Shown here piece after piece: positions 1,310 through 13,835 of a stretch of DNA of 40,472 nt; position 1 is the stretch's first letter, and the number at the start of each line of letters is the position of its first letter. Position numbers and translations under genes: made by a program. The DNA comes from an uncultured Pseudomonadota bacterium (GTDB lineage Bacteria > Pseudomonadota > Alphaproteobacteria > RF32 > CAG-239). The notes beneath the pieces are model-generated. The model was not told the origin of the DNA and searched no databases. It worked only from the letters and a program-made list of their open reading frames with translations. The DNA is taken from the NCBI GenBank assembly GCA_949295005.1, contig CASFJL010000001.1, positions 68,806 through 109,277 on the forward strand, in the 5' to 3' direction.

Positions 1310-1933
1310 CTATTGACTAATCCAAACGATTCTATTTAAGCGAATGATATCAGAAATCAAAATATTTTCTTCATCATTAGTGGGATTATACACATCGCAA
1401 ACCACAAGTTTGGAAGGAGTTCTTCTAATAAATTCTTTAATCAAGACCTGATTATCTTTAGTAAAAATAAGGATTCGGTCAGCTTTTCTAATATCAGAAT
1501 TTTGAGCCACAATCATTGTTGTTCCGAAGCGATAGATAGGTGCAAATGCATTGCAATCAATTTCAATGGCATATAAAGATTCTCTAAATTCTGGAAATAA
1601 AATCTTTGCCCAAGATTGAATTGGTAAGTTATCAGTATTTGAAAGGTTGAGCTCTGAGAGCTGAGAGAGTTTAATAAAAGGGATAGAAGAGCTTTCTTTT
1701 TCATCTTCATCAGAACTAAGAGCATAAAATTGTTCAAAAGACAGGCCAAAAATTTCTAACAGACGATTAATACTGTCAAGAGAGGGCCATCTTTGTTTGC
1801 CATCTGGTCGAAGTCTTTTGCTTTTATTAAAAGTTGTGGCGTCCAGACCGGCGCGCTTGGCTAGTCCTGAAGGTGAGAGACCGTGTTTTTCCGCCAACTT
1901 ATCAACAGCATTCCAAATATTTTCATATTTCAT
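1310..1933 (-). CDS. XRE-family HTH regulator with S24 (LexA/CI-like) C-terminal domain lacking the catalytic Ser
   Basis: The protein has 207 residues. Residues ~5-65 form an XRE-type DNA-binding domain, with the helix-turn-helix at LSPSGLAKRAGLDATTFNKS (about 19-38). After an acidic linker (SSDEDEKESSS), residues ~115-207 have the S24/LexA-like fold: YAIEIDCNAFAP, YRFGTTMIVAQ, QVLIKEFIRR, ending in NRIVWISQ. In cleavable repressors the motif is G-D-S-M-x-P; here it reads C-N-A-F-A-P, so the nucleophilic Ser is Ala, while the general-base Lys (IKE) remains. RecA-stimulated self-cleavage is therefore unlikely. From memory, a family of alphaproteobacterial regulators has this ending and a similarly altered motif. 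It is transcribed away from the phage gene series and probably represses it through the shared intergenic region. Confidence 0.85.
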   Translation of the reverse strand: MKYENIWNAVDKLAEKHGLSPSGLAKRAGLDATTFNKSKRLRPDGKQRWPSLDSINRLLEIFGLSFEQFYALSSDEDEKESSSIPFIKLSQLSELNLSNTDNLPIQSWAKILFPEFRESLYAIEIDCNAFAPIYRFGTTMIVAQNSDIRKADRILIFTKDNQVLIKEFIRRTPSKLVVCDVYNPTNDEENILISDIIRLNRIVWISQ

Positions 1934-1972
1934 TTTTTTTACTTTCTAAAAGGGGTTAAGGCATTTTTTCTC

Positions 1973-2001
1973 ATCATAACCTAAAATGAAATAGGAATCA
2001 A
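1973..2001 (-). promoter_or_regulatory. Predicted sigma-70 promoter of the regulator gene
   Basis: On the minus strand a -35 TTGATT (1996-2001) and -10 TATGAT (1973-1978) are separated by exactly 17 bases. Transcription would begin near 1966, about 33 bases before the ATG at 1933. The -35 box lies inside one arm of an imperfect inverted repeat (AGGAATCAA 1993-2001 / TTGAAATTCCT 2014-2024), so autoregulation is plausible. Confidence 0.55.
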
Positions 2002-2013
2002 TTCTTTTTTGTG

Positions 2014-2041
2014 TTGAAATTCCTACAACCATATGTATAAA
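2014..2041 (+). promoter_or_regulatory. Predicted rightward promoter for the phage-type gene series
   Basis: A -35 TTGAAA (2014-2019) and -10 TATAAA (2036-2041) are separated by 16 bases on the plus strand. The start point would be near 2048, leaving a ~43-base leader before the ATG at 2091. The -10 is covered by the inverted repeat at 2027-2052, so a bound repressor would block polymerase. It is the only convincing promoter seen ahead of the rightward genes. Confidence 0.5.
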
Positions 2042-2052
2042 TCATTATGGTT
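2027..2052. promoter_or_regulatory. Candidate operator: perfect 7-bp inverted repeat
   Basis: AACCATA (2027-2033) and TATGGTT (2046-2052) form a perfect dyad separated by 12 bases. It straddles the -10 box of the rightward promoter, the expected place for an operator of the divergent HTH regulator. Half-site spacing of about two helical turns (centre to centre 19 bp) suits a dimer. Binding by this regulator is inferred. Confidence 0.45.
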
Positions 2053-2090
2053 AATATTTAGTTAATTGTGTTTATGGGAAGTTAGGGAAA

Positions 2091-2420
2091 ATGAGGGAAT
2101 ATTATGAACCGTTTGAAAGTGCAGAAGAAGTATGGTTTTGGTTTTGCAGTTCTTTGTTAGCAAGAGGAGATGGTTTGCGGTCCAGAACTGATTATTGCGG
2201 AAAACCAAGATGTTGTGAAATTTCAGACATTTATCGTATAATTAAAAGGATGAAAAGGGCACATCATTTAAGCCAACGTCATTTACGTGTTATGACACAA
2301 TGGGGAGAAAAACAACTTTCACCATGGTATGATAAAAGAGCAAAAAGAAGCGAAGTCAGACTTTGGGAAGAAGGTTTATCAAATTTTGAAATATATTTAA
2401 GATATTATAATATGTTGTGA
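2091..2420 (+). CDS. Conserved-type hypothetical protein with WFWF motif, first gene of the rightward series
   Basis: The protein has 109 residues with an aromatic N-terminal motif (AEEVWFWFCSSLLARGDG), a central Cys-containing stretch (CGKPRCCEISDIYRIIKR) and a basic helical part (LSQRHLRVMTQWGEKQLSP) ending in LWEEGLSNFEIYL. I recall similar short alphaproteobacterial proteins of unknown function with the pattern 'WFWF..ARR.G....CEP.DIYR', but cannot confirm this here. No signal peptide or membrane segment is seen. It is the first gene after the operator-bearing promoter, divergent from the regulator, so it could be a regulator of the downstream late-type genes; that is inference. The ATG follows a GGGAAA-type weak Shine-Dalgarno. 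Confidence 0.6.
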   Translation: MREYYEPFESAEEVWFWFCSSLLARGDGLRSRTDYCGKPRCCEISDIYRIIKRMKRAHHLSQRHLRVMTQWGEKQLSPWYDKRAKRSEVRLWEEGLSNFEIYLRYYNML

Positions 2421-2428
2421 GGGCAGAG

Positions 2429-2869
2429 ATGTATAATTGCGGTTTTAAACAAGAATATATTCAAAAAGTTTATGTAGTTTTTGTTGATAATACAAGCCTT
2501 TGGTGGTTAAAGTTTTTAAAAAAAGGGTTTAGACATTGTTATATTATTTTTCAGTTAGGAAACAATCCACAACTTTTAATAGAATTAAATCCTATGTCGA
2601 ATCAGCTTTATATGTTTAAGCATACATCGCATTTAGGGTGTGATTATATTTTTCATTTAAAACAACAAGATAACACAAAAATAATTTCTATAAATATAAA
2701 GCAGGCAGAATTAAAAACAGCTCCGATTGGAGTTTTTAGTTGTGTAGAATTTGTAAAAAGAGTCTTAGGAATACATAGTTTTTGGCTGTTTACACCATTT
2801 CAATTATATAAATTTTTAACAAAAACTAAAAATAGTAGGAAAAAAGTCTTGACAAATGATTTTTTTTAA
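2429..2869 (+). CDS. Hypothetical phage-associated protein with papain-like Cys/His pattern
   Basis: I chose the ATG at 2429 (146 residues) because GAGG at 2419-2422 is well spaced; a GTG at 2417 overlapping the previous stop is the alternative. The order GFRHCYII (His, about residue 35) then FSCVEFVKRVLGI (Cys, about residue 104) and TPFQLYKFL resembles small phage proteins with a papain/NlpC-like arrangement, although here His precedes Cys as in permuted members of that clan. An enzymatic role such as peptidase or amidase is therefore possible but unproven. The C-terminus is very basic (KTKNSRKKVL). It lies between the first gene and the terminase genes, and a strong terminator follows 42 bases after its stop. 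Confidence 0.6.
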   Translation: MYNCGFKQEYIQKVYVVFVDNTSLWWLKFLKKGFRHCYIIFQLGNNPQLLIELNPMSNQLYMFKHTSHLGCDYIFHLKQQDNTKIISINIKQAELKTAPIGVFSCVEFVKRVLGIHSFWLFTPFQLYKFLTKTKNSRKKVLTNDFF

Positions 2870-2910
2870 TTTATAAGCAAAATATCACTTGCTCGTAGTG
2901 TATCTAAATC

Positions 2911-2935
2911 AAAGCTCCGTTACGGAGCTTTTTTT
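2911..2935 (+). terminator. Strong intrinsic terminator placed just before the small terminase gene
   Basis: AAAGCTCCG / CGGAGCTTT, a perfect 9-bp stem with a 3-base loop (TTA), is followed by a T run to 2935. The next start codon is only 9 bases further on, leaving no room for a separate promoter. Confidence 0.85.
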
Positions 2936-2943
2936 GTAGGATT

Positions 2944-3264
2944 ATGGATATGCCGACCAAAAAGATAAAAAACTTAAAAACATTAAAAGACAAATTAAAA
3001 AAATATTTACCGCAAAAGATTTCGGAGGTGATAACAAGTTACGAAAATTTTTCAGAAAAACAAGCTCCAGATGATGCCAAAGGTTTTAGTGCGCATCACA
3101 GCGCGTGCAAAGCAGCCGTTGTGCATGCAGAAACACTGTTAAAACTTGCGCGTTGGACGGAAGATGAAAATTTAGAAACTTCAGCATCAACCAAGCAAGA
3201 CGATTGGCTTGTTGATTGGTTGAATGAGGCAAAACAAGAGGAAGAAGAGGATGCAGAAAACTGA
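2944..3264 (+). CDS. Putative phage terminase small subunit
   Basis: This 106-residue acidic, helical protein lies immediately before the large terminase gene and overlaps it by 14 bp, the normal position for TerS. The N-terminus is very Lys-rich, as expected for DNA contact (KKIKNLKTLKDKLKKYL). The centre reads NFSEKQAPDDAKGFSAHHSACKAA, and the C-terminus is strongly acidic (EAKQEEEEDAEN), where TerS proteins often contact TerL. I do not see a classical HTH. The start may be ATG 2944 or ATG 2950; the AGG at 2938-2940 suits the second slightly better. Role assigned mainly by position; function in the cytoplasm would be recognition of DNA to be packaged. Confidence 0.55.
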   Translation: MDMPTKKIKNLKTLKDKLKKYLPQKISEVITSYENFSEKQAPDDAKGFSAHHSACKAAVVHAETLLKLARWTEDENLETSASTKQDDWLVDWLNEAKQEEEEDAEN

Positions 3265-4756
3265 TTTGAAAAAAATCAGTTTTTTTAATTTTGTATTTAT
3301 ATGGATGAAAATGCAAAACTTAAAAATACCCAAGCATCAAAAAACAATTTTGAAATGGCTTGAGAAATTATATTTGGATGACCTAAAAAAATATGGTTTG
3401 TTAATGTCATTTCGAAATTCGGGCAAGTCAACCATTGTGGGGTTGTTTTGCGCTTGGGTTTTGTATTATCGTCCGGAGACCAGAATTTTGGTAATGGCGG
3501 CAGATCATGCTCTGGCCAAAAAAATGGTAAGAAACGTAAAACGCATAATAGAACAGCATCCGCTGACCAAAGTTTTGAAACCGCAAAAACTTGAACAATG
3601 GGCATCTGATCAATTTACCATAAATCGGCCGCAAGAGTTAAGAGACCCATCCATGCTGGCAAAAGGCTTAGGCGCCAACATAACGGGCTTGCGCGCAGAT
3701 TTAATTATTTGTGATGATGTGGAAGTGCCGAGAAATTCGGATACTTTGGCCAAAAGAGAAGATATGCGGGCAAAATTAGAAGAGCTGGATTATATTTTAA
3801 CACCGGAAGGAATGCAATTATACATCGGCACACCGCATAGTTTTTATACAATTTATCAGGTTGCTTATGATGACAAAAAGCCGGAAACAGAGCCGTTTTT
3901 ATTAAATTTTGAAAAATTAGAAATTCCAATTTTGGATAAAGATGGACATTCTGCTTGGCCGGAAAGGTTTAGTGAAGAAAAAATAGCTTCAATCAGAATG
4001 CGTTCGGGAGAAAATAAGTTCTTATCGCAAATGATGTTAAAGCCGGTCAATTTTTCTGAAAGCATTCTTAATCCGGATTGTTTGAAAAAATATCAGGCCG
4101 AAATAAGCTTAGTTTCTTCCAACAATCGAGATTATTTGAAAATCGGTGAGCAAAAAATGGTTTCAGCCTCTTGTTGGTGGGATCCGTCTTTTGCCTCCAA
4201 AAAAGGAGATAATTCGGTTGTGGCTTGTGTTTTTACCGATGAAAACGGCCATTATTGGCTGCATGATTTGGAATATATCAAAATACAAGATGAAGTTTCT
4301 GAAAATAGAGCAACCAAGCAGTGTGAAAAAGTGGCAGATTTTTTAAGACGCAATTATTTATCTTCCATTCGGGTAGAAGCCAATGGTATCGGTAAATTTT
4401 TGCCTGGCATATTAAAACAGGTTTTGGCGCAAAACAATATGCGTGTTTCGGTTTTAGAGGCTTATTCTTCAACCAACAAAGCAGAAAGAATTTTATCAGC
4501 TTTTGAAGTTTTGTTGGCGGAAAAAGCCTTAAACGTGCATCAAAAAATTTGGGCAACTCCGTTTATTGAAGAAATGAGAGAATATACGCCCGATGGTAAA
4601 ACGCATGATGATGCGTTAGATGCTGTGGCCGGTTGTCTGAGTGCAGAACCTGTCAGATTACCGATAATATTTGCCGATAAAAAAGCAGACAAACTTTTTT
4701 CATGGCGCGGTGCGGATAAAGTATTTTCGGCACAAACAAATTTTGAAATAGAATAG
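3251..4756 (+). CDS. Phage terminase large subunit (packaging ATPase-nuclease)
   Basis: I chose the ATG at 3251, which follows a GAGGAAGAAGAGG tract and gives 501 residues. The ATPase domain has Walker A SFRNSGKST (~53-61), Walker B LIICDD (151-156) and a motif III-like IGTPHS (~192-197). The C-terminal RNase H-like nuclease shows Asp in CWWDPSF (D311), a second acidic residue in VEANGIG (E376) and the terminal HDDALDA cluster (~452-458). All catalytic residues expected of TerL are present, so the motor looks functional. TerL pumps DNA into the prohead through the portal and cuts it. The usual length for T7/P22-type large terminases is 470-590 residues. It is coupled to the small subunit and followed after 7 bases by the next gene. 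Confidence 0.9.
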   Translation: MQKTDLKKISFFNFVFIWMKMQNLKIPKHQKTILKWLEKLYLDDLKKYGLLMSFRNSGKSTIVGLFCAWVLYYRPETRILVMAADHALAKKMVRNVKRIIEQHPLTKVLKPQKLEQWASDQFTINRPQELRDPSMLAKGLGANITGLRADLIICDDVEVPRNSDTLAKREDMRAKLEELDYILTPEGMQLYIGTPHSFYTIYQVAYDDKKPETEPFLLNFEKLEIPILDKDGHSAWPERFSEEKIASIRMRSGENKFLSQMMLKPVNFSESILNPDCLKKYQAEISLVSSNNRDYLKIGEQKMVSASCWWDPSFASKKGDNSVVACVFTDENGHYWLHDLEYIKIQDEVSENRATKQCEKVADFLRRNYLSSIRVEANGIGKFLPGILKQVLAQNNMRVSVLEAYSSTNKAERILSAFEVLLAEKALNVHQKIWATPFIEEMREYTPDGKTHDDALDAVAGCLSAEPVRLPIIFADKKADKLFSWRGADKVFSAQTNFEIE

Positions 4757-4763
4757 GTGTAAG

Positions 4764-5051
4764 ATGTTTAATGAATTAACCAATTGGATAGCAATGGTTG
4801 AGATACCGATATTCGCCGCCTTGTTTCGGTTGGTAGGAAAAAACAAACAAGAGGCAGAAAACGGAATATCAGGTTTGACCAAAGCACATAATCAACATAT
4901 ATCCGTATTAAAAGATTCAATTGCAGATTTCAAGCTTCACGTTGCCAGAAATTATGTTTCGGTAACATATTTGAAAGATGTTGAAAACCGCCTGACCAAT
5001 CATTTATTGCGGATTGAAAAGAAACTTGACGGAGTAGGAAAAAATCAATGA
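4764..5051 (+). CDS. Small phage lysis-cassette protein with coiled-coil C-terminus
   Basis: The 95-residue product has a hydrophobic/amphipathic N-terminus (NWIAMVEIPIFAALFRLVG) followed by a polar helical region ending in YLKDVENRLTNHLLRIEKKLD, a clear heptad pattern. Proteins of this build commonly precede endolysin genes in alphaproteobacterial phages and gene transfer agents; a membrane-associated accessory to lysis is the likely role, but no function is established from sequence. Its TGA stop overlaps the ATG of the endolysin gene (ATGA), implying translational coupling. Confidence 0.6.
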   Translation: MFNELTNWIAMVEIPIFAALFRLVGKNKQEAENGISGLTKAHNQHISVLKDSIADFKLHVARNYVSVTYLKDVENRLTNHLLRIEKKLDGVGKNQ

Positions 5052-5467
5052 CGGACTTAACAACGGATATCCTTGCCAAAACCATTTACGGAGAAGCAAG
5101 GGGAGAAACCATCAGCGGGCAAGAAGCTGTGGCGAATGTGGTCTTAAACAGACTAAAATTCAGTCAAAAAAGAAAAAGATATTGGTGGGGAAACACAATT
5201 GCCGAGATTTGTCAGAAATCTCGGCAATTTTCTTGCTGGAACACAGATGACCCGAATTATCAAATTATCTTAAGGGTTAATGATGATAATCCGATTTATC
5301 TTGTTTGCAAAAGAATAGCGCAAAGAGCCATTGCCGGTTTGCTTAAAGACAACACGCATCAAGCAACGCATTATCATACCAAATATGTGCGTCCGGCTTG
5401 GTCAATCGGCAAAATTCCTTGCGCTGAAATTGGCACTCATATTTTTTATAATGATGTGGAGAAATAA
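5048..5467 (+). CDS. SleB-type cell wall hydrolase (endolysin)
   Basis: The 139-residue protein is a single Hydrolase_2/SleB domain: LAKTIYGEARGE (catalytic Glu in YGEARGE), GQEAVANVVLNRL, then QFSCWNTDDPNY and THYHTKYVRPAW near the end, all family hallmarks. Members cleave peptidoglycan glycan strands. It has no signal peptide, so release to the periplasm would depend on the neighbouring holin. The gene is overlapped by the preceding one and abuts the holin gene exactly (stop 5465-5467, start 5468), making a three-gene lysis cassette within the packaging and virion genes. Confidence 0.88.
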   Translation: MTDLTTDILAKTIYGEARGETISGQEAVANVVLNRLKFSQKRKRYWWGNTIAEICQKSRQFSCWNTDDPNYQIILRVNDDNPIYLVCKRIAQRAIAGLLKDNTHQATHYHTKYVRPAWSIGKIPCAEIGTHIFYNDVEK

Positions 5468-5998
5468 ATGATTGTAAAAATATTAAGCAAATTTGGCTTG
5501 CCTTTTTTAATAAAAATTGTCCAATCCGGATTAGAAAAATTGGGAAGCAGTGTGGCGCAAAATGCCAATCAAGCTTTGGGCAATGTGCAAAAGGCAATCA
5601 GCACGCAAGAAATCAGCAATTCAGAGCTTGAGGAGGCCAATCGTCATTTGGAAAAAATGCAAGAGCTTGAAAACGAGCTGGATACAAACACGCTCAATTC
5701 TATTCATGAGATTATGAAACAAGAATTAAGCGCAGAAGATAAGTTTGTACGTTTTTGGCGTCCGGCATTTGGATATTCAGTGGCGCTTGCGTGGTTATTA
5801 ACAATGGCCACCGTGTGTTATGTGGTTTTGGCACAATATCAAAATGCCGAGCAAATAATCAACGCTTTGGTTGAAACAACTTCTTTGTGGAGCGTGGCTT
5901 TGGGTGTGTTAGGTTTACAGGTCGTCAAAAGCACGCAAGAAAAAACACCGCCCTCACAAAGCAAAATGATATCAAAAATCGTTAATAAAATTAAGTAA
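5468..5998 (+). CDS. Holin of the 3TM family (GTA_holin_3TM-like)
   Basis: The protein has 176 residues. The N-terminal ~90 residues are polar with a long helical Glu/Leu-rich stretch. From residue ~92 the signature DKFVRFWRPAFGYSVALAW opens a hydrophobic region (SVALAWLLTMATVCYVVLA), and a second hydrophobic stretch is LWSVALGVLGLQVVK; the RPxFGY motif is typical of the 3TM holin family named after gene transfer agents and shared with many alphaproteobacterial phages. The role is timed permeabilisation of the inner membrane to let the endolysin out. Its presence means the element retains a way to lyse its host. A strong hairpin terminator begins one base after the stop. Confidence 0.85.
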   Translation: MIVKILSKFGLPFLIKIVQSGLEKLGSSVAQNANQALGNVQKAISTQEISNSELEEANRHLEKMQELENELDTNTLNSIHEIMKQELSAEDKFVRFWRPAFGYSVALAWLLTMATVCYVVLAQYQNAEQIINALVETTSLWSVALGVLGLQVVKSTQEKTPPSQSKMISKIVNKIK

Positions 5999-6032
5999 AA
6001 GCTCAGAAATTTTTTCTGAGCTTATTTTTTTT
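5999..6032 (+). terminator. Intrinsic terminator between lysis cassette and head genes
   Basis: AAGCTCAGAAA (5999-6009) and TTTCTGAGCTT (6013-6023) make an 11-bp perfect stem, followed by A and eight T. The AAAGGAGG ribosome binding site of the next gene starts two bases after the T run, so no promoter can lie between. Confidence 0.88.
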
Positions 6033-6045
6033 GAAAGGAGGAAAA

Positions 6046-6240
6046 ATGGGAGGAATTTTTAGTAGTGAACCCAAAATAAAAGTGGTTGAAGATACGTCTG
6101 CCAAAGATGCTGAAGAAGCAAGAAAAGAAGCTTTGGCGCGCCAAAGAAGAGGAATGGAAAGCACCATTCATACTTCATATAACGGTCTTTTTGACACAAA
6201 AAACAGAGATTTGAGCAGAAAAAAACTGTTGGGAGAATAA
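6046..6240 (+). CDS. Small phage protein preceding the portal gene
   Basis: ATG 6046 follows an excellent AAAGGAGG site and gives 64 residues beginning MGGIFSSEPKIKV; an upstream TTG would lie on the ribosome binding site and is rejected. The pattern 'MGG.F', a short helical Ala/Glu/Arg-rich centre (EEARKEALARQRRGM) and an end of RKKLLGE is a recurring form in podovirus head modules just upstream of the portal, in my recollection with a conserved 'RRG..ST' and terminal 'LLG'. Here RRGMESTIHTS is present. Function unknown; possibly a head-completion or portal-associated protein. Confidence 0.65.
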   Translation: MGGIFSSEPKIKVVEDTSAKDAEEARKEALARQRRGMESTIHTSYNGLFDTKNRDLSRKKLLGE

Positions 6241-6241
6241 C

Positions 6242-7780
6242 ATGGACAACAAGATAGAAAAGCTAATCAAGCGATATCAAAAAGCCATTGAAAGAAAACT
6301 TCAATGGGAGCCCCATTGGCAAGAATGTTATGAATATGCTTTTCCGCAAAGAGAGACTTCTTGTTTGAATAATTATCAAAATTATGAAGGTAGCAAAAAG
6401 AATGTGCATTTATTTGATGCCACGGCTCCTGATGCAGTTGACCAACTGGCATCATCTCTTTTGGCAGAATTAACCCCGCCATGGGCAAAATGGTTTGGCT
6501 TAAAAGCCGGAGCCGAGCTTTCGGGAGAAGAAGCCAATCAGGTATCAGAAACCTTAAATAAAACTTCAGAAGTGATGCTCCAAAATTTTGAGCATTCAAA
6601 TTTTGCGGTCGAAATTCATCAATGCTATTTAGATTTAATAACGGCAGGAACAGCTTGTTTAATGTTTGAAGAAGCACCTTTGGGAGAAGCATCAGCATTT
6701 CAATTTACGGCAATTCCGTTAAGAGAAATTGCTTTTGAAGAGAGTTATGACGGCAAAATTGATACCACTTTTCGCTGCTCAAAAATCAAAATCCCCGAAA
6801 TTCAAGTCAGATTTTCAGAGGTGGTGTTGCCTGAAAAGTGGCAACGATTGGCCAAAGATACACCGGATTATCAGTTAAGCTTGATTGAAGCCGTTATTCC
6901 TAAAAAAGATAAATTCGGCTCATCTGGTTATGAATACACGGCTTTTGTTTGGGATGAAAATTCTGGTATTGAAGACAATGTGATTTTGAAAGAAGGAACA
7001 TTTGCCACATCACCTTTTATTAATTTTCGCTGGCTCAAAGCTCCGGGAGAAATTTATGGTCGTTCTCCGGTAATGAAAGCTTTGCCGGATATTAAAACCG
7101 CAAACAAAGTCGTGGAGCTGATTTTGAAAAATGCGTCCATTTCCGTAACCGGTATTTGGCAAGCAGATGATGACGGCGTCTTAAATCCGGCAAATATCAA
7201 GCTGGTACCGGGAGCAATTATTCCCAAAGCGGTTGGCTCAAAAGGCTTAACCCCATTGGAAGCCCCCGGAAAATTTGATGTATCTCAGCTTATTTTGGAA
7301 AATTTGCAAGCCAGAATAAAGCACGCTTTGCTGGCAGACAGGTTATCTCAGGTTAATTCTCCGGAGATGACTGCAACTGAGGTTTTGGCCAGAGCAAGTG
7401 AAATTGCCAGAATTTTGGGGGCAAGCTTTGGCCGTTTGCAAACAGAATTGCTGACACCTTTGGTCAAGAGAGCATTTTCCATTTTAAGAAGAAGGGGAGA
7501 TGTTTTGAACTTTGATTTAGACGGCAAGATTGTCGATTTGCAATACAAATCACCGTTAGCCATGCTCAGAGCCAGAGAAGATATCAACAACATTTCAGAA
7601 TGGTTGAACTTGGTTTCTTCTTTTGGGCCGGAAGCTTTGGCAACAGTAAATGTAGGAGAAGTGGCCAAAGTGTTGGGCAAAATTTTGAATGTGCCTGAAA
7701 ACCTGATGCTTTCGGCAAACAACAATCTGTCTCAAGAAGAGTTAGCCTTATCTGAAGGAGGAGAAAACATCGTTGAGTGA
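6242..7780 (+). CDS. Phage portal / head-tail connector protein (T7 gp8-like)
   Basis: The 512-residue protein matches the T7-type head-tail connector family throughout: an N-terminal helical part with WEPHWQECYEYAFPQ, then VDQLASSLLAELTPPWAKWF, a 'DLITAGTACLMFEE' stretch, the wing region, INFRWLKAPGEIYGRSPVMKALPDI in the middle, and a C-terminal helical crown with MTATEVLARASEIARILG and FGRLQTELLTPL. The length is normal (T7 gp8 has 536). It would form the dodecameric ring through which TerL packages DNA and to which the tail tube attaches. It follows the small gene by one base, and its TGA overlaps the next gene. This identifies the element as short-tailed (podovirus-type). Confidence 0.92.
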   Translation: MDNKIEKLIKRYQKAIERKLQWEPHWQECYEYAFPQRETSCLNNYQNYEGSKKNVHLFDATAPDAVDQLASSLLAELTPPWAKWFGLKAGAELSGEEANQVSETLNKTSEVMLQNFEHSNFAVEIHQCYLDLITAGTACLMFEEAPLGEASAFQFTAIPLREIAFEESYDGKIDTTFRCSKIKIPEIQVRFSEVVLPEKWQRLAKDTPDYQLSLIEAVIPKKDKFGSSGYEYTAFVWDENSGIEDNVILKEGTFATSPFINFRWLKAPGEIYGRSPVMKALPDIKTANKVVELILKNASISVTGIWQADDDGVLNPANIKLVPGAIIPKAVGSKGLTPLEAPGKFDVSQLILENLQARIKHALLADRLSQVNSPEMTATEVLARASEIARILGASFGRLQTELLTPLVKRAFSILRRRGDVLNFDLDGKIVDLQYKSPLAMLRAREDINNISEWLNLVSSFGPEALATVNVGEVAKVLGKILNVPENLMLSANNNLSQEELALSEGGENIVE

Positions 7781-7994
7781 AGAATATGACACAAGTTTAA
7801 TGTCTGAGGAAGAAATAAAAAAAGCATTTGAAAAATGTTTTTTAAGCAAAGAGGGCAAAATTGTCCTCTCTTTTTTACGCAGACAAACCATTGAGCGTCA
7901 ATACGGCGCCAATGTCGAAGAAGCTCAGTTAAGAGATTTGGAAGGACAAAGAAGACTGTTCAGACAAATAGAACGGCTGAGCAAATCAAATTAA
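7773..7994 (+). CDS. Bbp19-like small phage protein
   Basis: The 73-residue product starts at TTG 7773, supported by GGAGGAG at 7757-7763 and overlap with the portal stop; no in-frame ATG occurs before residue 10. The core FEKCFLSKEGKIVLSFLRRQTIER plus LEGQRRLFRQIERL fits the small Bbp19-type family found next to portal genes in Bordetella phage BPP-1-like and alphaproteobacterial podoviruses. The role is unknown; a minor head or morphogenesis factor is presumed from position. Confidence 0.65.
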   Translation: MSEEYDTSLMSEEEIKKAFEKCFLSKEGKIVLSFLRRQTIERQYGANVEEAQLRDLEGQRRLFRQIERLSKSN

Positions 7995-8017
7995 TCAACT
8001 AAAAGAAAGGAAAAATT

Positions 8018-8716
8018 ATGCAACCAAAAAGAAAAACAGAAAATCTTTTGGAGAGTTCAGCATACGCTCTAAAAGGCAATCGTCCGCAAAATTTGGCGGA
8101 AAAATTTTGGGATAATCAGGAGGGCAAAGTCAAATTAGAAGAATTGATTGATGCTTATAATGCATTGTCTCAATCACAAAATGCAATGCCTGATGCCAAC
8201 CGAATGGTTCCGCAAAATTATATGCAATATCACATTAAAAGTCCGTCTCCTGTTTTGGAAGTGGATGAAGATTTGTTGAAAAGATTTTATGAAAAAGGCT
8301 TCAGCAATGACCAAGCCCAATTTGTTTATGACTTGGCCGGTGAAAGAGTTTTGCCGGTTTTAGATGAAATGGCCGTAAATTTTGAGGCAGAAAGACAATT
8401 GGAAAAATTAGCTCAACATTTTGGCGGCAGAGACAAGTTCAATGAAGTATCTCGCTCTTTGAGCAATTGGGCAAAACAAAATGTAAATCAAGAAATTTTT
8501 AACGCGTTGGGAACAACGGCAGAAGGTGTGATTGCTTTGTATAACATGATGTCTTCTTCCGAGCCTCTTCTTTGCAAAAATGAGCCTGAGTTTGAAAACT
8601 TAAACGAGGCAAACTTGCGCAAGATGATGGAAGACCCGCGTTATTGGCGTGATAAGGATAGCGCCTATATTGCCAAAATCACTCGTGGTTTTGAAAAATT
8701 ATATCCTGAAAAATAA
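8018..8716 (+). CDS. Capsid scaffolding / assembly protein (T7 gp9-like)
   Basis: This is a 232-residue acidic helical protein between portal and capsid genes, exactly where podoviruses carry the scaffold. The C-terminal signature LRKMMEDPRYWRDKD followed by AYIAKITRGFEKLYP is the conserved end of scaffolding proteins of this group and likely binds capsid subunits. The central region (DEDLLKRFYEKGFSNDQAQFVYDLA) is helical. It would direct prohead assembly and then leave. ATG 8018 has AAAGGA upstream. It is not a protease fusion; no catalytic motif is visible. Confidence 0.8.
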   Translation: MQPKRKTENLLESSAYALKGNRPQNLAEKFWDNQEGKVKLEELIDAYNALSQSQNAMPDANRMVPQNYMQYHIKSPSPVLEVDEDLLKRFYEKGFSNDQAQFVYDLAGERVLPVLDEMAVNFEAERQLEKLAQHFGGRDKFNEVSRSLSNWAKQNVNQEIFNALGTTAEGVIALYNMMSSSEPLLCKNEPEFENLNEANLRKMMEDPRYWRDKDSAYIAKITRGFEKLYPEK

Positions 8717-8747
8717 TATCTAAATCAACATATTAAGGAGAAAATAT

Positions 8748-9572
8748 ATGTCAACACAAGTAACACAATCTTTTATTAAAAATTTTGAAGCAGATGTTCA
8801 TTTGGCTTATCAGCAAATGGGCTCAAAATTGCGCAATATGGTCAGATACAAAGGCAATGTTGTCGGCGCCAGCACTGTTTTTCAAAAAGTAGGAAAAGGC
8901 ATGGCTTCAGGCAAAGCTCGTCATGGTTTGGTTCCGGTGATGAGCATTGACCACACCCCTGTTGAATGCGAACTTCAAGATTATTACGCAGGTGATTGGG
9001 TAGATGCATTAGATGAGCTCAAAATGAGCATTGATGAAAGAAGAGTTGTAGCCAGTGCCGGTGCTTATGCTTTGGGCCGCAAAACAGATGAATTGATTAT
9101 CAATGCTTTGAGCAAAGCATCATCAACCAACGATGTGGGCGAATATTCCGCTGTTTTGACTAAAGACACTCTTTTGAAAGCATTTGCCAAATTAAACAGC
9201 AATGATGTGCCTGATGACGGTCAACGCTTTGGTATTGTTGGTCCGTTGCAATGGAACGCACTTTTGAATATTGAAGAATTTTCAAATTCAGATTATGCGG
9301 GTGATAACTTGCCGTTTTTGAAAGGAACGGAAAGCCGTAAATGGTTGGGCATTAACTGGATGATGCACACCGGCTTGCCCTTAAACGGCACCAACAGAGA
9401 TTGCTTTATTTTCCACAAAACAGCAGTTGGCCACGCATCTGGTCAAGATGTAAAATCAGACATCACATGGCATGGTGACCATGCGGCTCACTTTGTAAAT
9501 AATATGATGAGTCAAGGTGCTTGCCTGATTGATGAAACAGGAATTGTTCGTATCAAATGTAAAGAAGCTTAA
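8748..9572 (+). CDS. Major capsid protein
   Basis: The 274-residue protein opens with STQVTQSFIKNFEADVHLAYQQMGSKL-type sequence, followed by FQKVGKGMASGKARHGLVP, a VDALDELKMSIDERRVVAS segment and ALGRKTDELIINAL. This succession (N-arm, 'D.D..DE.k..iDer' spine helix, 'GR..D.lI..al') is typical of HK97-fold capsid proteins in podovirus-type head modules. 'DETGIVRIKCKEA' ends the chain. It has a clean AAGGAG site and follows the scaffold by 31 bases. Nothing suggests truncation, so an icosahedral shell could be formed. Confidence 0.88.
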   Translation: MSTQVTQSFIKNFEADVHLAYQQMGSKLRNMVRYKGNVVGASTVFQKVGKGMASGKARHGLVPVMSIDHTPVECELQDYYAGDWVDALDELKMSIDERRVVASAGAYALGRKTDELIINALSKASSTNDVGEYSAVLTKDTLLKAFAKLNSNDVPDDGQRFGIVGPLQWNALLNIEEFSNSDYAGDNLPFLKGTESRKWLGINWMMHTGLPLNGTNRDCFIFHKTAVGHASGQDVKSDITWHGDHAAHFVNNMMSQGACLIDETGIVRIKCKEA

Positions 9573-9594
9573 ACAAAAAAATGGAGATTAAAAT

Positions 9595-9855
9595 ATGTCA
9601 TATAATGCAAAAAACTTTAGTGTAATGGCTTATGCCAATGGTTTTACTTTGTGGAATTATCGTTCTGAAGATAATTTAGAAACCATCAAAGGCAGCGGGT
9701 ATTTTAATGATGCCGGTGCTTTTGCCCGAGTAGGGGATATGATTTTGGTAAACGGTTCCATTAATGCTACTGTTGAGCCGGCAATTTTAACCGTGATGTC
9801 TATTGAAGATGATACGGTAACAGTTGCGCCATTGGCAACAGCGGCAGCTGCATAA
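9595..9855 (+). CDS. Small capsid-associated (decoration/head fibre base-like) protein
   Basis: The 86-residue beta-rich product contains NGFTLWNYRSEDNLETIKG, SGYFNDA and ARVGDMILVNG, then an Ala-rich tail. Short proteins with 'GFTLW.Y.....GYFN.A....VGD.I' follow the capsid gene in many podovirus-like prophages, where they are annotated as head decoration or trimeric spike-like proteins; the exact role is not proven. The gene follows the capsid gene by 22 bases with a GGAGA site. A strong terminator follows 33 bases after the stop, closing the head segment. Confidence 0.65.
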   Translation: MSYNAKNFSVMAYANGFTLWNYRSEDNLETIKGSGYFNDAGAFARVGDMILVNGSINATVEPAILTVMSIEDDTVTVAPLATAAAA

Positions 9856-9888
9856 AATAATAAAAAACAACACTACCAGCAAATGATG

Positions 9889-9922
9889 AGAGAGCCCATT
9901 GATTTGGGCTCTCTTTTTTTTT
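9889..9922 (+). terminator. Intrinsic terminator after the capsid genes, before tail genes
   Basis: AGAGAGCCCA (9889-9898) and TGGGCTCTCT (9905-9914) form a 10-bp stem with a 6-base loop and a T run to 9922. The AAGGAG site of the next gene starts immediately (9923-9928). Its place, after capsid and before the gp11-like gene, is the same as that of T-phi in phage T7. Confidence 0.9.
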
Positions 9923-9934
9923 AAGGAGAAAAAG

Positions 9935-10504
9935 ATGAATAACAGCAGCATAAGTTTATGTTCCAAAGCGTTATTAAAAATAGGAGCCACAAGTATTACC
10001 AGCTTTGAAGATGGTACGGCAGAAGCAGAAGTTTCCGGCAACTTATATTCTTATATCAGAGATTCATTGCTATCCTCTTATCCGTGGAGTTTTGCATTAA
10101 GTCAAACCAAATTAGCCAGACTGGAAAATGTTCCGGTTGCAGATTTTAATTATGCATATCTTTTGCCGACAGATTTTTTAAGAGTTGTTTCGGCGGGTAG
10201 CTCAGGCAAAGGCAGAGGACTGGTTTATAAAATTGTAAAAAACTGTTTATATACAAATATGAGTGAAGTTAATTTAACCTACATCAGACGTCCTGATGAA
10301 GATAATTTTCCGGCTTATTTTTGTGAGGCTTTGATTAATAAACTTGCTTATGAATTTTGCATTCCGTTAACAGAAAGCACAACCAGAGCAGAGTTTTTAA
10401 GCAAAATAGCAGAAGATTCCATCAGTCGAGCCAGATCGATTGATGCACAGCAATCAACCCCTTCATGTGTGGAAGATTTTAGTTTGGTGGAGGTGCGCCA
10501 ATGA
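9935..10504 (+). CDS. Tail tubular protein A (T7 gp11-like)
   Basis: ATG 9935, seven bases after AAGGAG, gives 189 residues; earlier in-frame starts would lie in the terminator hairpin. The N-terminus SLCSKALLKIGATSITSFEDGTAEA followed by RDSLLSSYPWSFAL and YAYLLPTDFLRV is diagnostic of gp11-like tubular protein A, which forms the upper ring joining portal and nozzle in short-tailed phages. FCEALINKLAYEFCIPLTES matches the second half. Its length fits T7 gp11 (196). The stop overlaps the next start (ATGA-type), coupling it to tubular protein B. Confidence 0.88.
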   Translation: MNNSSISLCSKALLKIGATSITSFEDGTAEAEVSGNLYSYIRDSLLSSYPWSFALSQTKLARLENVPVADFNYAYLLPTDFLRVVSAGSSGKGRGLVYKIVKNCLYTNMSEVNLTYIRRPDEDNFPAYFCEALINKLAYEFCIPLTESTTRAEFLSKIAEDSISRARSIDAQQSTPSCVEDFSLVEVRQ

Positions 10505-12399
10505 ATCAAATATATGCCAAAACCAATTTTACTTCAGGTCAATTATCAGAGAATTTGTATGGAAGAGGAGATTTAAGAATTTATGAAAACGGAGCAAAAT
10601 ATTTGCACAACATACAGATTTTTCCAACCGGAGGTGTTGCCAGAAGAAAAGGTCTGCAAGTTATAGATGAATTATCTCAAAAAGGAAAAATAATATCTTT
10701 TGAATTTAACACTGAGCAAACCTATCTTCTATGTTTTTTAGATAGAAGCATCAAAATATATAAAGATGGTAAAAATATTGCCAATTTAGCATCTCCATGG
10801 ACGGAAAGCCAATTATCACAAATAAATTGGACTCAAAGTGCAGATACCTTGCTTGTAGTTCATCCTGATGTGGCACCGCAGCAGATTAGCCGAAATAATA
10901 ATGAGGAATGGAAAATTGGAGAGTGGGAGTTTTATCAAAAAGACGGTCAGGTTTTTTGTCCTTATTATAATTTTTATCAAAACAAGGTAAAAATGAAACC
11001 TAATAGGACTTCAGGAGAAATTACCTTAACAACAGATACAGACATTTTTTCATCATTATATTTGGGAATAAGAATTAAGATAAACGGAGGAGAAGTTGTG
11101 ATTGGTAACATTGTACATTCAAGAGAATGTACAGCCACGGCAACCAAAGGATTAAGCAACTCTAATGAAACAACAGAATGGGAAGAACAAGCATTTTCTG
11201 CGTTAAGAGGATATCCAAACTCCGTGACCTTTCACCAAGACAGAATGGTTATTGGTGGGTCAAAATCTTTGCCCAACCATTTATGGTTATCCAAGTCATC
11301 AGATTTATTTAATTTTGACATTGGAACAGGTTTAGATGATGAAGCAATTGATTTTGCCATTTTATCAGATCAAGTTAACGCAATTATAAATGTGGTTTCA
11401 ACCAGACACTTGTTGGTGTTTACAACCGGAGCAGAATGGATGGTTTCAGGAGAGCCGTTAACGCCGACAAGTATCACACTTAACCGTCAGACCAATATCG
11501 GATGTTATTCAAAATATTCATTACCGCCGCAAAATGTAGACGGAGCCACGTTGTTTATTTCACAAAACGGCAAACAGTTGAGAGAATTTTTGTTTGCAGA
11601 TGTAGAACAAGCTTATCAGGCCAAAGACTTGACGTTGCTTTCAGATGATATTTTGGATAAACCAATAGATTGCGTTTATTTTCAAGATAAAAGCATTTTA
11701 TACATTATTTTAGAAGATGGAAGTGTTTCTTGTTTAACCACTTACAGAACAGAAGAAGTAAATGCTTGGAGCAAGTTGATTACGCAAGGAAAATTTATTT
11801 CCTGTGCGGTAATAGGGTCTGAGGTTTATTTTGTTATTCAAAGACAAGAAAAATATTTTATAGAAACATTTGCCAATGACTTTTATGTAGATTGCGGAAA
11901 AAAGTTTTCATCGGAGGTGCCCAAAAAAGAATGGGATGGATTAGATTATCTGGAAAATAAACAAGTCAGTGTGGTTGCAGATAATTTTACAATCGGAGAT
12001 TTTGTCGTTGAAAACGGAAAGATTACCCTTCAAGAAGATGCAAGCGAAATTATAGTCGGATTACCTTATGAACATGTTATAGAACCTTTACCTTTTATGG
12101 TAAATTCTACCATTCCGTATCCGCCTAAAGCTTATAGGCTGATTTATGGAATATTTCGTATTGTCGAGAGCAAATCTTTGAGGCTGGATTTTGGAAATGG
12201 ATATTTTGAAGTTCCGCTCAAGAAGATGCATAAGGACCAAATATTAGATTCTCCGCCCACATATTTTAGCGGAGATATAGAAGTAAGATCCATAGGTTGG
12301 ATAAGAGAAATGTCAAAAGCAATGTGGAGTATCAGAAGTGATGTTCCATGTCCGTTTACATTATTGTCAGTTGCCGTAGAAATCAAAACAAAAGATTAA
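10501..12399 (+). CDS. Tail tubular protein B-like nozzle protein (T7 gp12-like)
   Basis: The 632-residue beta-rich protein begins with TNFTSGQLSENLYGRGDLRIYENGAKYL and IFPTGGVARRKGLQ, the shared opening of gp12-type tail nozzle proteins of podoviruses. Later features include FHQDRMVIGGSKSLPNHLWLSKSSDLFNF and SDQVNAIINVVSTRHLLVFTTGAEWMV, which recur in the family. It is somewhat shorter than T7 gp12 (794). It would complete the tail tube below gp11. There is no obvious receptor-binding or depolymerase domain at the C-terminus, so it does not evidently double as a tail spike. Confidence 0.88.
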   Translation: MNQIYAKTNFTSGQLSENLYGRGDLRIYENGAKYLHNIQIFPTGGVARRKGLQVIDELSQKGKIISFEFNTEQTYLLCFLDRSIKIYKDGKNIANLASPWTESQLSQINWTQSADTLLVVHPDVAPQQISRNNNEEWKIGEWEFYQKDGQVFCPYYNFYQNKVKMKPNRTSGEITLTTDTDIFSSLYLGIRIKINGGEVVIGNIVHSRECTATATKGLSNSNETTEWEEQAFSALRGYPNSVTFHQDRMVIGGSKSLPNHLWLSKSSDLFNFDIGTGLDDEAIDFAILSDQVNAIINVVSTRHLLVFTTGAEWMVSGEPLTPTSITLNRQTNIGCYSKYSLPPQNVDGATLFISQNGKQLREFLFADVEQAYQAKDLTLLSDDILDKPIDCVYFQDKSILYIILEDGSVSCLTTYRTEEVNAWSKLITQGKFISCAVIGSEVYFVIQRQEKYFIETFANDFYVDCGKKFSSEVPKKEWDGLDYLENKQVSVVADNFTIGDFVVENGKITLQEDASEIIVGLPYEHVIEPLPFMVNSTIPYPPKAYRLIYGIFRIVESKSLRLDFGNGYFEVPLKKMHKDQILDSPPTYFSGDIEVRSIGWIREMSKAMWSIRSDVPCPFTLLSVAVEIKTKD

Positions 12400-12413
12400 A
12401 AAAGGAGAAAAAA

Positions 12414-12782
12414 ATGGGAGGAATTGAAACAGCTGTTGGCGTTGGAGTATCTGCCGCCAATTTATTGAATGATGCCAATAAGAGCAATAAACAATTAAAA
12501 CAAATGCAAAAAAATTATCAATATAATCAGCAAAAAAGAAAAAATTTGCTTAATGAACAATTGGCAAGCAGAAGAGCCAGTTTAAGTGCCATGGGTTTGG
12601 GTTCAAGCAAATCGGCAATAGCAGCTCAACAAAGAGAAGCAAAAGAAGGTTATGATGAGTTAGGATATAATAATGATAATTATAAATATGAATATAAGCA
12701 AAAATACGATGAAAAAGAAAAAAATTTAACAAGCGGCTTGCTAAATTCAATTTGGGATACAACCGGAAAAATCATAAAATAG
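12414..12782 (+). CDS. Small virion protein, candidate ejection (gp14-like) protein
   Basis: ATG 12414 after AAAGGAG gives 122 residues. The N-terminus is small-residue rich and weakly hydrophobic (GGIETAVGVGVSAANLLNDA), followed by a Gln/Asn/Lys-rich helix and then LASRRASLSAMGLGSSKSAIAAQQREA. The general build, a Gly/Ala N-terminus, a long helix and an 'R.s...G.~~SS.s' centre, resembles T7 internal virion protein gp14 and small proteins placed after the tail tube in related phages. T7 gp15- and gp16-sized partners are missing here. Assignment is tentative and based on order and composition. Confidence 0.5.
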   Translation: MGGIETAVGVGVSAANLLNDANKSNKQLKQMQKNYQYNQQKRKNLLNEQLASRRASLSAMGLGSSKSAIAAQQREAKEGYDELGYNNDNYKYEYKQKYDEKEKNLTSGLLNSIWDTTGKIIK

Positions 12783-12791
12783 GAGGTGAAT

Positions 12792-12986
12792 ATGCCAAGA
12801 AAAAAAATAACATACAAACAAAAAAGACAAATGGCCTATGAAAAAGAGTTGCCGATAGGAGATCAATTAGATGCTTTGTTAAAAGCTTTTGACATGCTTT
12901 TGCAAGAAGGTGGAGATTTACCCTATGAGTTGATTGACATAATTGAAAAATGGCAAGCTATCAAGTTTAAATATCCCAAGATATAA
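12792..12986 (+). CDS. Last small gene of the phage series, unknown function
   Basis: ATG 12792 lies 5 bases after AGGAGG, giving 64 residues; a GTG at 12786 overlaps the ribosome binding site. The N-terminus is highly basic (PRKKITYKQKRQMAYEKE), and the rest (GDQLDALLKAFDMLLQEGG, ELIDIIEKWQAIKFKYPK) is helical. The 'iGdqlDallka' and 'W.aIK..yPK' pattern recurs, to my recollection, in small phage proteins near tail genes, without known role. It starts nine bases after the preceding stop and ends just before a hairpin, so it closes the transcription unit. Confidence 0.6.
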   Translation: MPRKKITYKQKRQMAYEKELPIGDQLDALLKAFDMLLQEGGDLPYELIDIIEKWQAIKFKYPKI

Positions 12987-12989
12987 TAA

Positions 12990-13011
12990 CAGGCAGGTTA
13001 ATACCTGCCTG
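12990..13011 (+). terminator. Hairpin at the end of the phage gene series
   Basis: CAGGCAGGT (12990-12998) and ACCTGCCTG (13003-13011) form a perfect 9-bp stem with a TAAT loop. A run of T is lacking immediately after it (AATTATTAAATATATTGC then eight or more T), so termination may be incomplete or assisted. Confidence 0.55.
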
Positions 13012-13339: not shown

Positions 13340-13425
13340 CAAGGCACAAATTTTTTGCCAAGAAAGGTGAGAGCATCGCGACATCAAGGCACGGACAGAG
13401 CGGCAATCAAACTAATGCGGTCAAG
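13340..13425. repeat. Intergenic repeat A, copy 1
   Basis: An ~86-bp unit starting CAAGGCAC, containing AGAGCATCGCG and ATCAAGGCACGGACAGAG, and ending GCGGTCAAG. It is nearly identical to copy 2 (107 bp downstream) and clearly richer in G+C than the surrounding genes. No coding potential is seen. Confidence 0.85.
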
Positions 13426-13446
13426 CAGGCTCTTCTTTTTTCAGAA

Positions 13447-13531
13447 CAAGGCACAAATTTTTCGCCAAGAAAGGTGAGAGCATCGCGGCATCAAGGCACG
13501 GACAGAGAGGCAATCAAACTAATGCGGTCAA
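13447..13531. repeat. Intergenic repeat A, copy 2
   Basis: Second copy of the CAAGGCAC...GCGGTCAA unit, differing from copy 1 at only a few positions (for example CATCGCGGC for CATCGCGAC). Directly after it comes a hairpin AAACGC-GCT-GCGTTT and then the first REP-like hairpin. Confidence 0.85.
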
Positions 13532-13543
13532 ACGCGCTGCGTT

Positions 13544-13666
13544 TGTCACCCTGAACTTGTTTCAGGGTCTATTTTCATATTTATTATTATCGCCTATCGA
13601 TAGTCGATAATATGCGCCATGCCGCTATGTTATTAAGGGATTGCTGAAATAAATTCAGCATGACGA
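13544..13666. repeat. REPIN-like pair of inverted REP hairpins
   Basis: Hairpin 1 is ACCCTGAA / TTCAGGGT (13548-13555, 13561-13568), preceded by GTC. Hairpin 2 is TGCTGAA / TTCAGCA (13642-13648, 13654-13660), followed by TGACG. Read on the minus strand, hairpin 2 has the same plan as hairpin 1: GTCA, a (C/G)CTGAA stem, a T-rich loop, TTTCAG. The two are thus members of one REP-like family in opposite orientation about 75 bp apart. Such motifs are common in alphaproteobacterial intergenic DNA. Confidence 0.65.
13586..13611. repeat. 26-bp near-perfect palindrome between the REP hairpins
   Basis: ATTATCG-C-CTATCGATAG-T-CGATAAT is an inverted repeat with a single mismatched pair (C/T) on each side of the perfect central CTATCGATAG. 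It lies midway between the two REP-like hairpins. Confidence 0.7.
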
Positions 13667-13686
13667 TAAGGAAAGAAAAATATTTT

Positions 13687-13771
13687 CAAGGCACGTTTTC
13701 TCCGCCAAGCACAAAGACAGCATCGCGGCATCAAGGCACGGACAGAGCGGCAATCAAACAGATGCGGTCAA
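13687..13771. repeat. Intergenic repeat A, copy 3 (more diverged 5' half)
   Basis: Third copy: the 5' part (CAAGGCACGTTTTCTCCGCCAAGCAC) has drifted, while CATCGCGGCATCAAGGCACG and the end GATGCGGTCAA are preserved. It runs straight into the 24-bp tandem repeat, which reuses the GCGGTCAA end. Confidence 0.8.
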
Positions 13772-13835
13772 GCTGGCTTCAGCTTGTGCGGTCAAGCTAG
13801 CTTCAGCTTGTGCGGTCAAGCTAGCTTCAGCTTGT
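13764..13835. repeat. Three tandem 24-bp repeats with internal hairpin
   Basis: Units at 13764-13787, 13788-13811 and 13812-13835 read GCGGTCAAGCTAGCTTCAGC + TTGT, the first with one change (CTGG for CTAG). Each contains AAGCT...AGCTT, able to form a small hairpin. There are no spacers of unique sequence, so this is not a CRISPR array. Confidence 0.9.

Follow-up and report, generated by a model that had tools for sequence, protein, structure and literature searches.

Leader terminators as probable antitermination checkpoints in a gene transfer agent-like, short-tailed-phage-type gene cluster of gut Alphaproteobacteria

In the known Q antitermination systems, the binding element lies between the -35 and -10 elements of the late promoter, and a -10-like pause sequence follows the start site (PMC6606751). 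The gene transfer agent (GTA) of Caulobacter is also under antitermination control, through an internal terminator, a report that we count as support for the reading proposed below; its activation involves IHF and GafY, GafZ, which acts at one promoter only, is reported to resemble no known antiterminator in sequence or structure, and the terminator is of a repeat type and lies after the first gene (PMC11150451). FpGTA of Faecalibacterium is podovirus-like and was presented as the first example of this morphology (PMC12946183); its host lies outside the Alphaproteobacteria, and we name it as a near precedent by description only. Here we describe a phage-like gene cluster in 40,472 nucleotides of an uncultured alphaproteobacterium (lineage RF32; CAG-239; assembly GCA_949295005.1, contig CASFJL010000001.1, positions 68,806 to 109,277), in which a terminator ahead of the late genes probably serves as an antitermination checkpoint. 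This whole stretch is called the window; positions are those of the window, and features lie on its forward (+) strand unless stated otherwise.

The late series of the cluster (terS, terL, lysis, portal, scaffold, capsid, gp11 and gp12) sits behind a repressor gene, rep, and two small genes, g2091 and g2417. The initial annotation of this DNA had placed three strong terminators in the series, and all three hairpins were found: T1 at 2911-2936 (stem 2911-2931) before terS, T2 at 5999-6032 (stem 5999-6023) before the pre-portal gene, and T3 at 9888-9922 (stem 9888-9915) before gp11. Each has a T run (2929-2935, 6025-6032 and 9914-9922, respectively) followed by the Shine-Dalgarno (SD) sequence of the next gene, and the gap of about 20 nt between stem and SD is too short for a promoter. 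Their folding z-scores against dinucleotide shuffles were -3.3 (T1), -3.7 (T2) and -4.9 (T3). The cluster had five strong terminator-like sites, compared with none or one in each of 20 Markov controls. Three of the five abut an SD and the start of an open reading frame (ORF), compared with 6 of 155 such sites in 400 kb of stretches from the same genome, which served as the genomic background. Further strong hairpins lie within genes, at 5197-5229 (endolysin) and 7850-7869 (Bbp19-like); the latter recurs in three relatives (L016, L017 and L100) and is absent from most others. The proposal that the genes downstream of the hairpins would depend on read-through or antitermination is supported at the level of sequence.

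T1 had been regarded as a mere divider read from upstream. The alignment of relatives speaks for another role: T1 is the predicted leader terminator of a dedicated, sigma70-type late promoter. This promoter, TTGACA-N17-TATAAG (2849-2877), had been overlooked; the scanner missed it because its -10 element reads TATAAG. A box, TAGGAAAAAAGTC (2836-2848), adjoins the -35 element, and the leader dyad, CACTTGCTCGTAGTG (2886-2900; consensus CACTTG-N3-CAAGTG), was located by motif search and alignment of relatives. The late transcript is predicted to start near 2884 and end near 2936, with a length of about 50 nt. The order by which Q-type antitermination is recognized in a sequence, a sigma70-type late promoter and then a terminator ahead of the late genes, is found here.

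Relatives were taken from genomes and viral contigs, and the genes were mapped in each. The block before terS is kept in them: a TAGGAA box, TTGACA, 17 bases, the -10 element, CACTTGCTNGTAGTGTATC, a variable hairpin with a T run, and the SD. In L003 and L004, the -35 element of this block is degraded. Rhodospirillales have a different gene order, with the pre-portal gene after g2417. Most of their loci show the same leader arrangement, with a related motif, at the g2417/pre-portal junction; in several, a capsid operon that has become separated is preceded by a second leader copy.

The composite unit of box, promoter, dyad, terminator and SD also heads distant operons, which the idea of modules within one series had left out of account. 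Genomes were searched for dyad and box patterns with a reversed-pattern control, and in the dyad search this control was nearly empty. At the distant operons, box and dyad are usually spaced by about 50 nt. In the genome of the window, a unit with two tandem terminators (G000:C8:22470-22538) precedes a tail-fibre gene (L220, L234); no tail-fibre gene was found among the PHROG matches of the main cluster. Ten genomes of the family carry tail-fibre genes at remote sites (a weak match in G008 was excluded), and the box-promoter-dyad-terminator unit, whole or partial, precedes them. Tail-fibre genes on other contigs, such as L214:4184-6049 (minus strand), share this leader, often with two tandem terminators. 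The tail genes were identified by PHROG tail-fibre families and, for L214, also by neighbouring tail-assembly families. At least one terminator was present in 15 of 16 leaders, compared with 50 of 400 segments of 150 bases drawn at random from the genome. Other operons are headed by the unit as well. In G014 (L216:6048-6977) and G027 (L250), inspection by eye suggests that it heads genes for small membrane proteins, some of them lipoprotein-like or i-spanin-like; G014 carries the dyad twice, and an ORF separates the two copies. In G002 and G013, the unit heads a pair of genes of unknown function. Of the 10 genomes with g2091, 9 had at least two dyad matches, compared with 1 of the 16 without it, a contrast that is partly built in, as T1 usually provides one match. 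One further dyad match, in G000:C60, lacks a clear promoter or terminator and is probably due to chance.

It is the tail-fibre leaders that reveal the motif as the dyad CACTTG-N3-CAAGTG. In the window, CAYTTGCTNRTARTG is present in two exact copies: the first precedes T1, and the second, in the opposite orientation, lies directly upstream of T3 (9871-9885, minus strand). With up to one mismatch allowed, 0.22 matches would be expected by chance. The T1/T3 pair recurs in relatives. Because the motif is a dyad, the two orientations represent the same kind of site. Repressor sites typically have such symmetry, and the dyad overlaps the start region. Furthermore, the box resembles an arm of the operator-like palindrome TAGGAAT..ATTCCTA in the early promoter region (1992-2041; -35 TTGAAA at 2014-2019, -10 TATAAA at 2036-2041), which is kept in the rep-g2091 gap of gut relatives. 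These features could be explained if dyad and box were operators of a repressor or an activator, with control at initiation and with the hairpins only as elements of mRNA ends or stability. We consider this explanation improbable, as the dyad is not in the rep-g2091 gap and as the hairpins, kept in all but one of the 16 leaders, lie between promoter and gene and must be passed.

Terminator positions were compared across 21 gut elements, one of them that of the window; for some genes, fewer elements entered the count. A terminator was present upstream of terS in 20 of 20, of gp11 in 17 of 17, of the major capsid gene (mcp) in 9 of 17, of the holin-like gene in 5 of 21 and of the pre-portal gene in 4 of 21, the last in the window's own genus only; other gene junctions were near zero. 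The stem sequences differ among relatives, so that position and not sequence is kept. From these counts with differing stems, T1 and T3 look selected and T2 looks like a local variant. The view of the hairpins as module dividers is therefore incomplete: T2 is specific to one genus, and the three are not equal. A hairpin upstream of gp11 was also found in 44 of 76 relatives on viral contigs (IMG/VR). In many viral-contig relatives (L018-L039), the gp11 terminator is preceded by a conserved stretch of another kind, TTGTTTGTTCATA.

T3 lies between capsid and gp11, the position of T-phi in phage T7, as the initial annotation had pointed out. A T7 particle needs fewer copies of its tail proteins than of capsid protein. 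The conservation of T3 in gut relatives and viral contigs would fit partial terminators that only set protein ratios, with fixed read-through at T1 and T3 as at T-phi and no antiterminator. This is unlikely in our view. It leaves unexplained the terminator that closely follows every dedicated late promoter and its doubling in tail-fibre leaders, as well as the dyad common to the leaders.

Both small genes upstream of the late promoter had been named as possible antiterminators, and only one of them kept that place. The product of g2091 (2091-2420) has 109 amino acids, and its AlphaFold2 (AF2) model had a pLDDT of 87.5. The top PDB match of the model was 6jnx_P, phage 21 Q in the Q-engaged complex, with Z 6.0, a root-mean-square deviation of 3.7 and 88 of 109 residues aligned (VIA-align, aligned chains); the next match had Z 3.3. 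This structure search followed after the leader layout had already pointed to a Q-like factor. The model is suggestive of a Q21-like fold, and g2091, which also has a Q-like position, is the best candidate for the antiterminator. Sequence searches against Pfam, NCBIfam, PHROG and PDB yielded nothing useful for g2091, tblastn gave no match among the phage records searched, and no significant match was found in the viral structure library. Of 289 genomes sampled from the class, 38 had a relative of g2091, at one place per genome save in a fragmented one.

For g2417 (2417-2869; gene 2429 of the initial annotation), H40, C41 and E111 are invariant and C109 is nearly so in the alignment of relatives, and the model is beta-rich. 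Pfam and fold searches gave no clear identity. The product looks like an enzyme, possibly NlpC/P60-like, and not like a regulator. Antitermination might still be real with g2417 or a host protein as the factor, or with action on the leader RNA, while g2091 does something else; the conservation of g2417 equals that of g2091, the gene borders the late promoter on its upstream side, and the dyads could form small RNA hairpins. However, the enzyme-like features of g2417 argue against it, and across Rhodospirillales the dyad half-sites change without compensating pairs, which fits a DNA site and not an RNA stem. We set the RNA hairpin aside and regard such an alternative factor or target as very unlikely.

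We propose, with a probability of about 0.68, a late regulon in which T1 and its counterparts in leaders at other sites of the genome act as antitermination checkpoints. A CI-like repressor would hold the early promoter and, via the related box, the late promoters. When the repressor fails, g2091 and g2417 would be made and the late promoters would fire, with RNA polymerase halting at the leader terminator after about 50 nt. The dyad, which lies within the first bases to be transcribed, would be the site where the Q21-like product of g2091 loads and renders the polymerase resistant to terminators. The modified polymerase would then pass T1, followed by T2 and T3 within the cluster, and would also pass the leaders of dispersed operons such as that of the tail fibre. 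T3 may additionally trim the expression of tail genes relative to capsid, like T-phi of T7. What the sequences show directly are the hairpins, the promoter-like element and the dyad, with their conservation and their return at remote operons; termination itself, loading at the dyad, the role of g2091 as the factor and repressor binding to the box are inferred.

Several observations weigh against this proposal. Unlike the binding element of Q systems, the conserved dyad is not between -35 and -10; it lies in the transcribed region, at about +3 to +17, and the -35/-10 spacer is not conserved. No clear conserved pause element was found after the start, and an A/T-rich stretch past the dyad is present in the gut clade only. 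At T3, no conserved promoter was found in the aligned sequences, though the dyad is present. We understand least the placement of the dyad past the start site and the promoterless copy at T3, two features in which the cluster differs from the textbook case of Q. The match of g2091 to Q had a Foldseek E-value of 6.0 and 7% identity, and unrelated small helical proteins can reach a Z of 6. In several GC-rich Magnetospirillum relatives, the leader hairpin has no good T run, and the tail-fibre leader of G014 is without a terminator, the sole such case among the tail-fibre leaders counted. G017 has g2091 yet no dyad match at one mismatch. Conversely, G002 (L235, L246, L253, L265) has dispersed sites and no g2091 or TerL match, an exception that could result from loss of the cluster or from an assembly gap.

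In the gut relatives with long enough flanks, the cluster has the same flanking host genes across genera (on one side only in L113). For most genes, the ratio of nonsynonymous to synonymous substitution rates (dN/dS) was about 0.02-0.23, which indicates purifying selection; the values for terL were discarded for a misaligned partial sequence. The PHROG and Pfam matches of the region 1310-12986, where several ORFs were without a match, included no recognized integrase or replication gene. The genome of the element is split over several loci: its tail-fibre gene lies apart, at G000:C8, behind a leader like that of the late operon. Because of the single chromosomal site, the purifying selection, the lack of a recognized integrase or replication gene and the remote tail-fibre operon, the element resembles, in its genes, a GTA more than an active prophage. 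Two of the hairpins, with their copies ahead of scattered operons, look like gates for a small phage-type protein encoded nearby to open; this points to a particle similar to a short-tailed phage, domesticated long ago and governed by a single on-switch. Common descent with the RcGTA-type head-tail cluster is unlikely because the portal, scaffold and tube genes matched T7-type families. Between the close relatives window and L096, synonymous divergence was very low in bbp19 and scaffold (7773-8716) and high in gp11 and gp12; this unevenness suggests recombination within the cluster.

We found no description of the element in the open literature, many subscription journals being beyond the search. 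It may, as we tentatively suppose, represent an undescribed podovirus-type GTA family, widespread in Rhodospirillales and related gut Alphaproteobacteria, in which the cluster and scattered operons (tail fibre, spanin-like and others) would be gated by one Q21-like antiterminator at leader dyads.

The remaining genes were assigned as follows. The repressor gene rep (1310-1933, minus strand) is of the CI/S24 type, with a match to a PHROG transcriptional repressor (2.4e-7) and weak matches to Peptidase_S24 and a Cro/C1 helix-turn-helix domain. The terS-like gene (2950-3264) matched phrog_31793 (2.7e-36), a family of unknown function, and was assigned by alignment and its position preceding terL; the start at 2950 was favoured over 2944 in the alignment of relatives. 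An A/T-rich hairpin with a T run (3256-3287; z -4.5 for 3245-3300) lies in the terS/terL gap. The terminase large subunit gene (3301-4756; phrog_38, 1.3e-84) is followed by the lysis block (4764-5998, PHROG search) of g4764, endolysin (5048-5467) and holin-like (5468-5998) genes. Behind T2, which the scanner also detected, the block at 6046-8716 consists of the pre-portal, portal (6242-7780), Bbp19-like (7773-7994) and T7-type scaffold (8018-8716) genes, assigned by PHROG and Pfam. The major capsid gene (8748-9572; phrog_3437, 3.4e-80) and a small gene (9595-9855) precede T3. The gp11-like and gp12-like tail tube genes (9935-12399; phrog_394, 1.5e-49, and phrog_376, 7.9e-144) and two small conserved genes (12414-12986; PHROG search and gene maps of relatives) close the late operon. 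A hairpin at the operon end (12990-13011, no strand assigned) was detected by the scanner and by folding, and relatives have strong terminators at the same end. Directly downstream of the cluster, at 13340-13830, are repeated intergenic units (aaggcacggacagagcggcaatcaaactaatgcggtcaag and similar).

Copies of the cluster are present in Azospirillum genomes (L157, L172, L174). In this genus, particles that carry random host DNA of about 10 kb have been reported and assigned to another gene cluster (PMC3899980); the copies described here are an alternative candidate source of these GTA-like particles.

The layout is like that of pR'-Q-tR' in lambda and phage 21, with a regulator gene a short distance upstream of a sigma70 late promoter, a short leader, a terminator and then the late genes, and the g2091 model is closest to Q of phage 21 (Z 6.0). 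Unlike in these phages, no sequence similarity to Q was found, the unit heads several dispersed operons, and the head genes are of the T7 type. The terminator between capsid and gp11, in 17 of 17 gut relatives, is like T-phi of T7; unlike T7, the cluster has no phage RNA polymerase gene that we could find, has a sigma70-type promoter, and carries a dyad upstream of T3. The Caulobacter GTA shares with it an alphaproteobacterial, domesticated phage cluster, a repressor with antitermination, and a terminator inside the cluster (PMC11150451), but differs in its activation by IHF and GafY, the type of its factor GafZ, its single promoter, and the type and place of its terminator. If our proposal is true, it adds a short-tailed-phage-type, domesticated, GTA-like system spread across a bacterial order, and box, promoter, leader dyad and terminator would form a simple sequence signature for finding all its scattered genes. 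The element would then be the second alphaproteobacterial domesticated phage under antitermination control after that of Caulobacter, with a different candidate factor and a different placement of the cis site.

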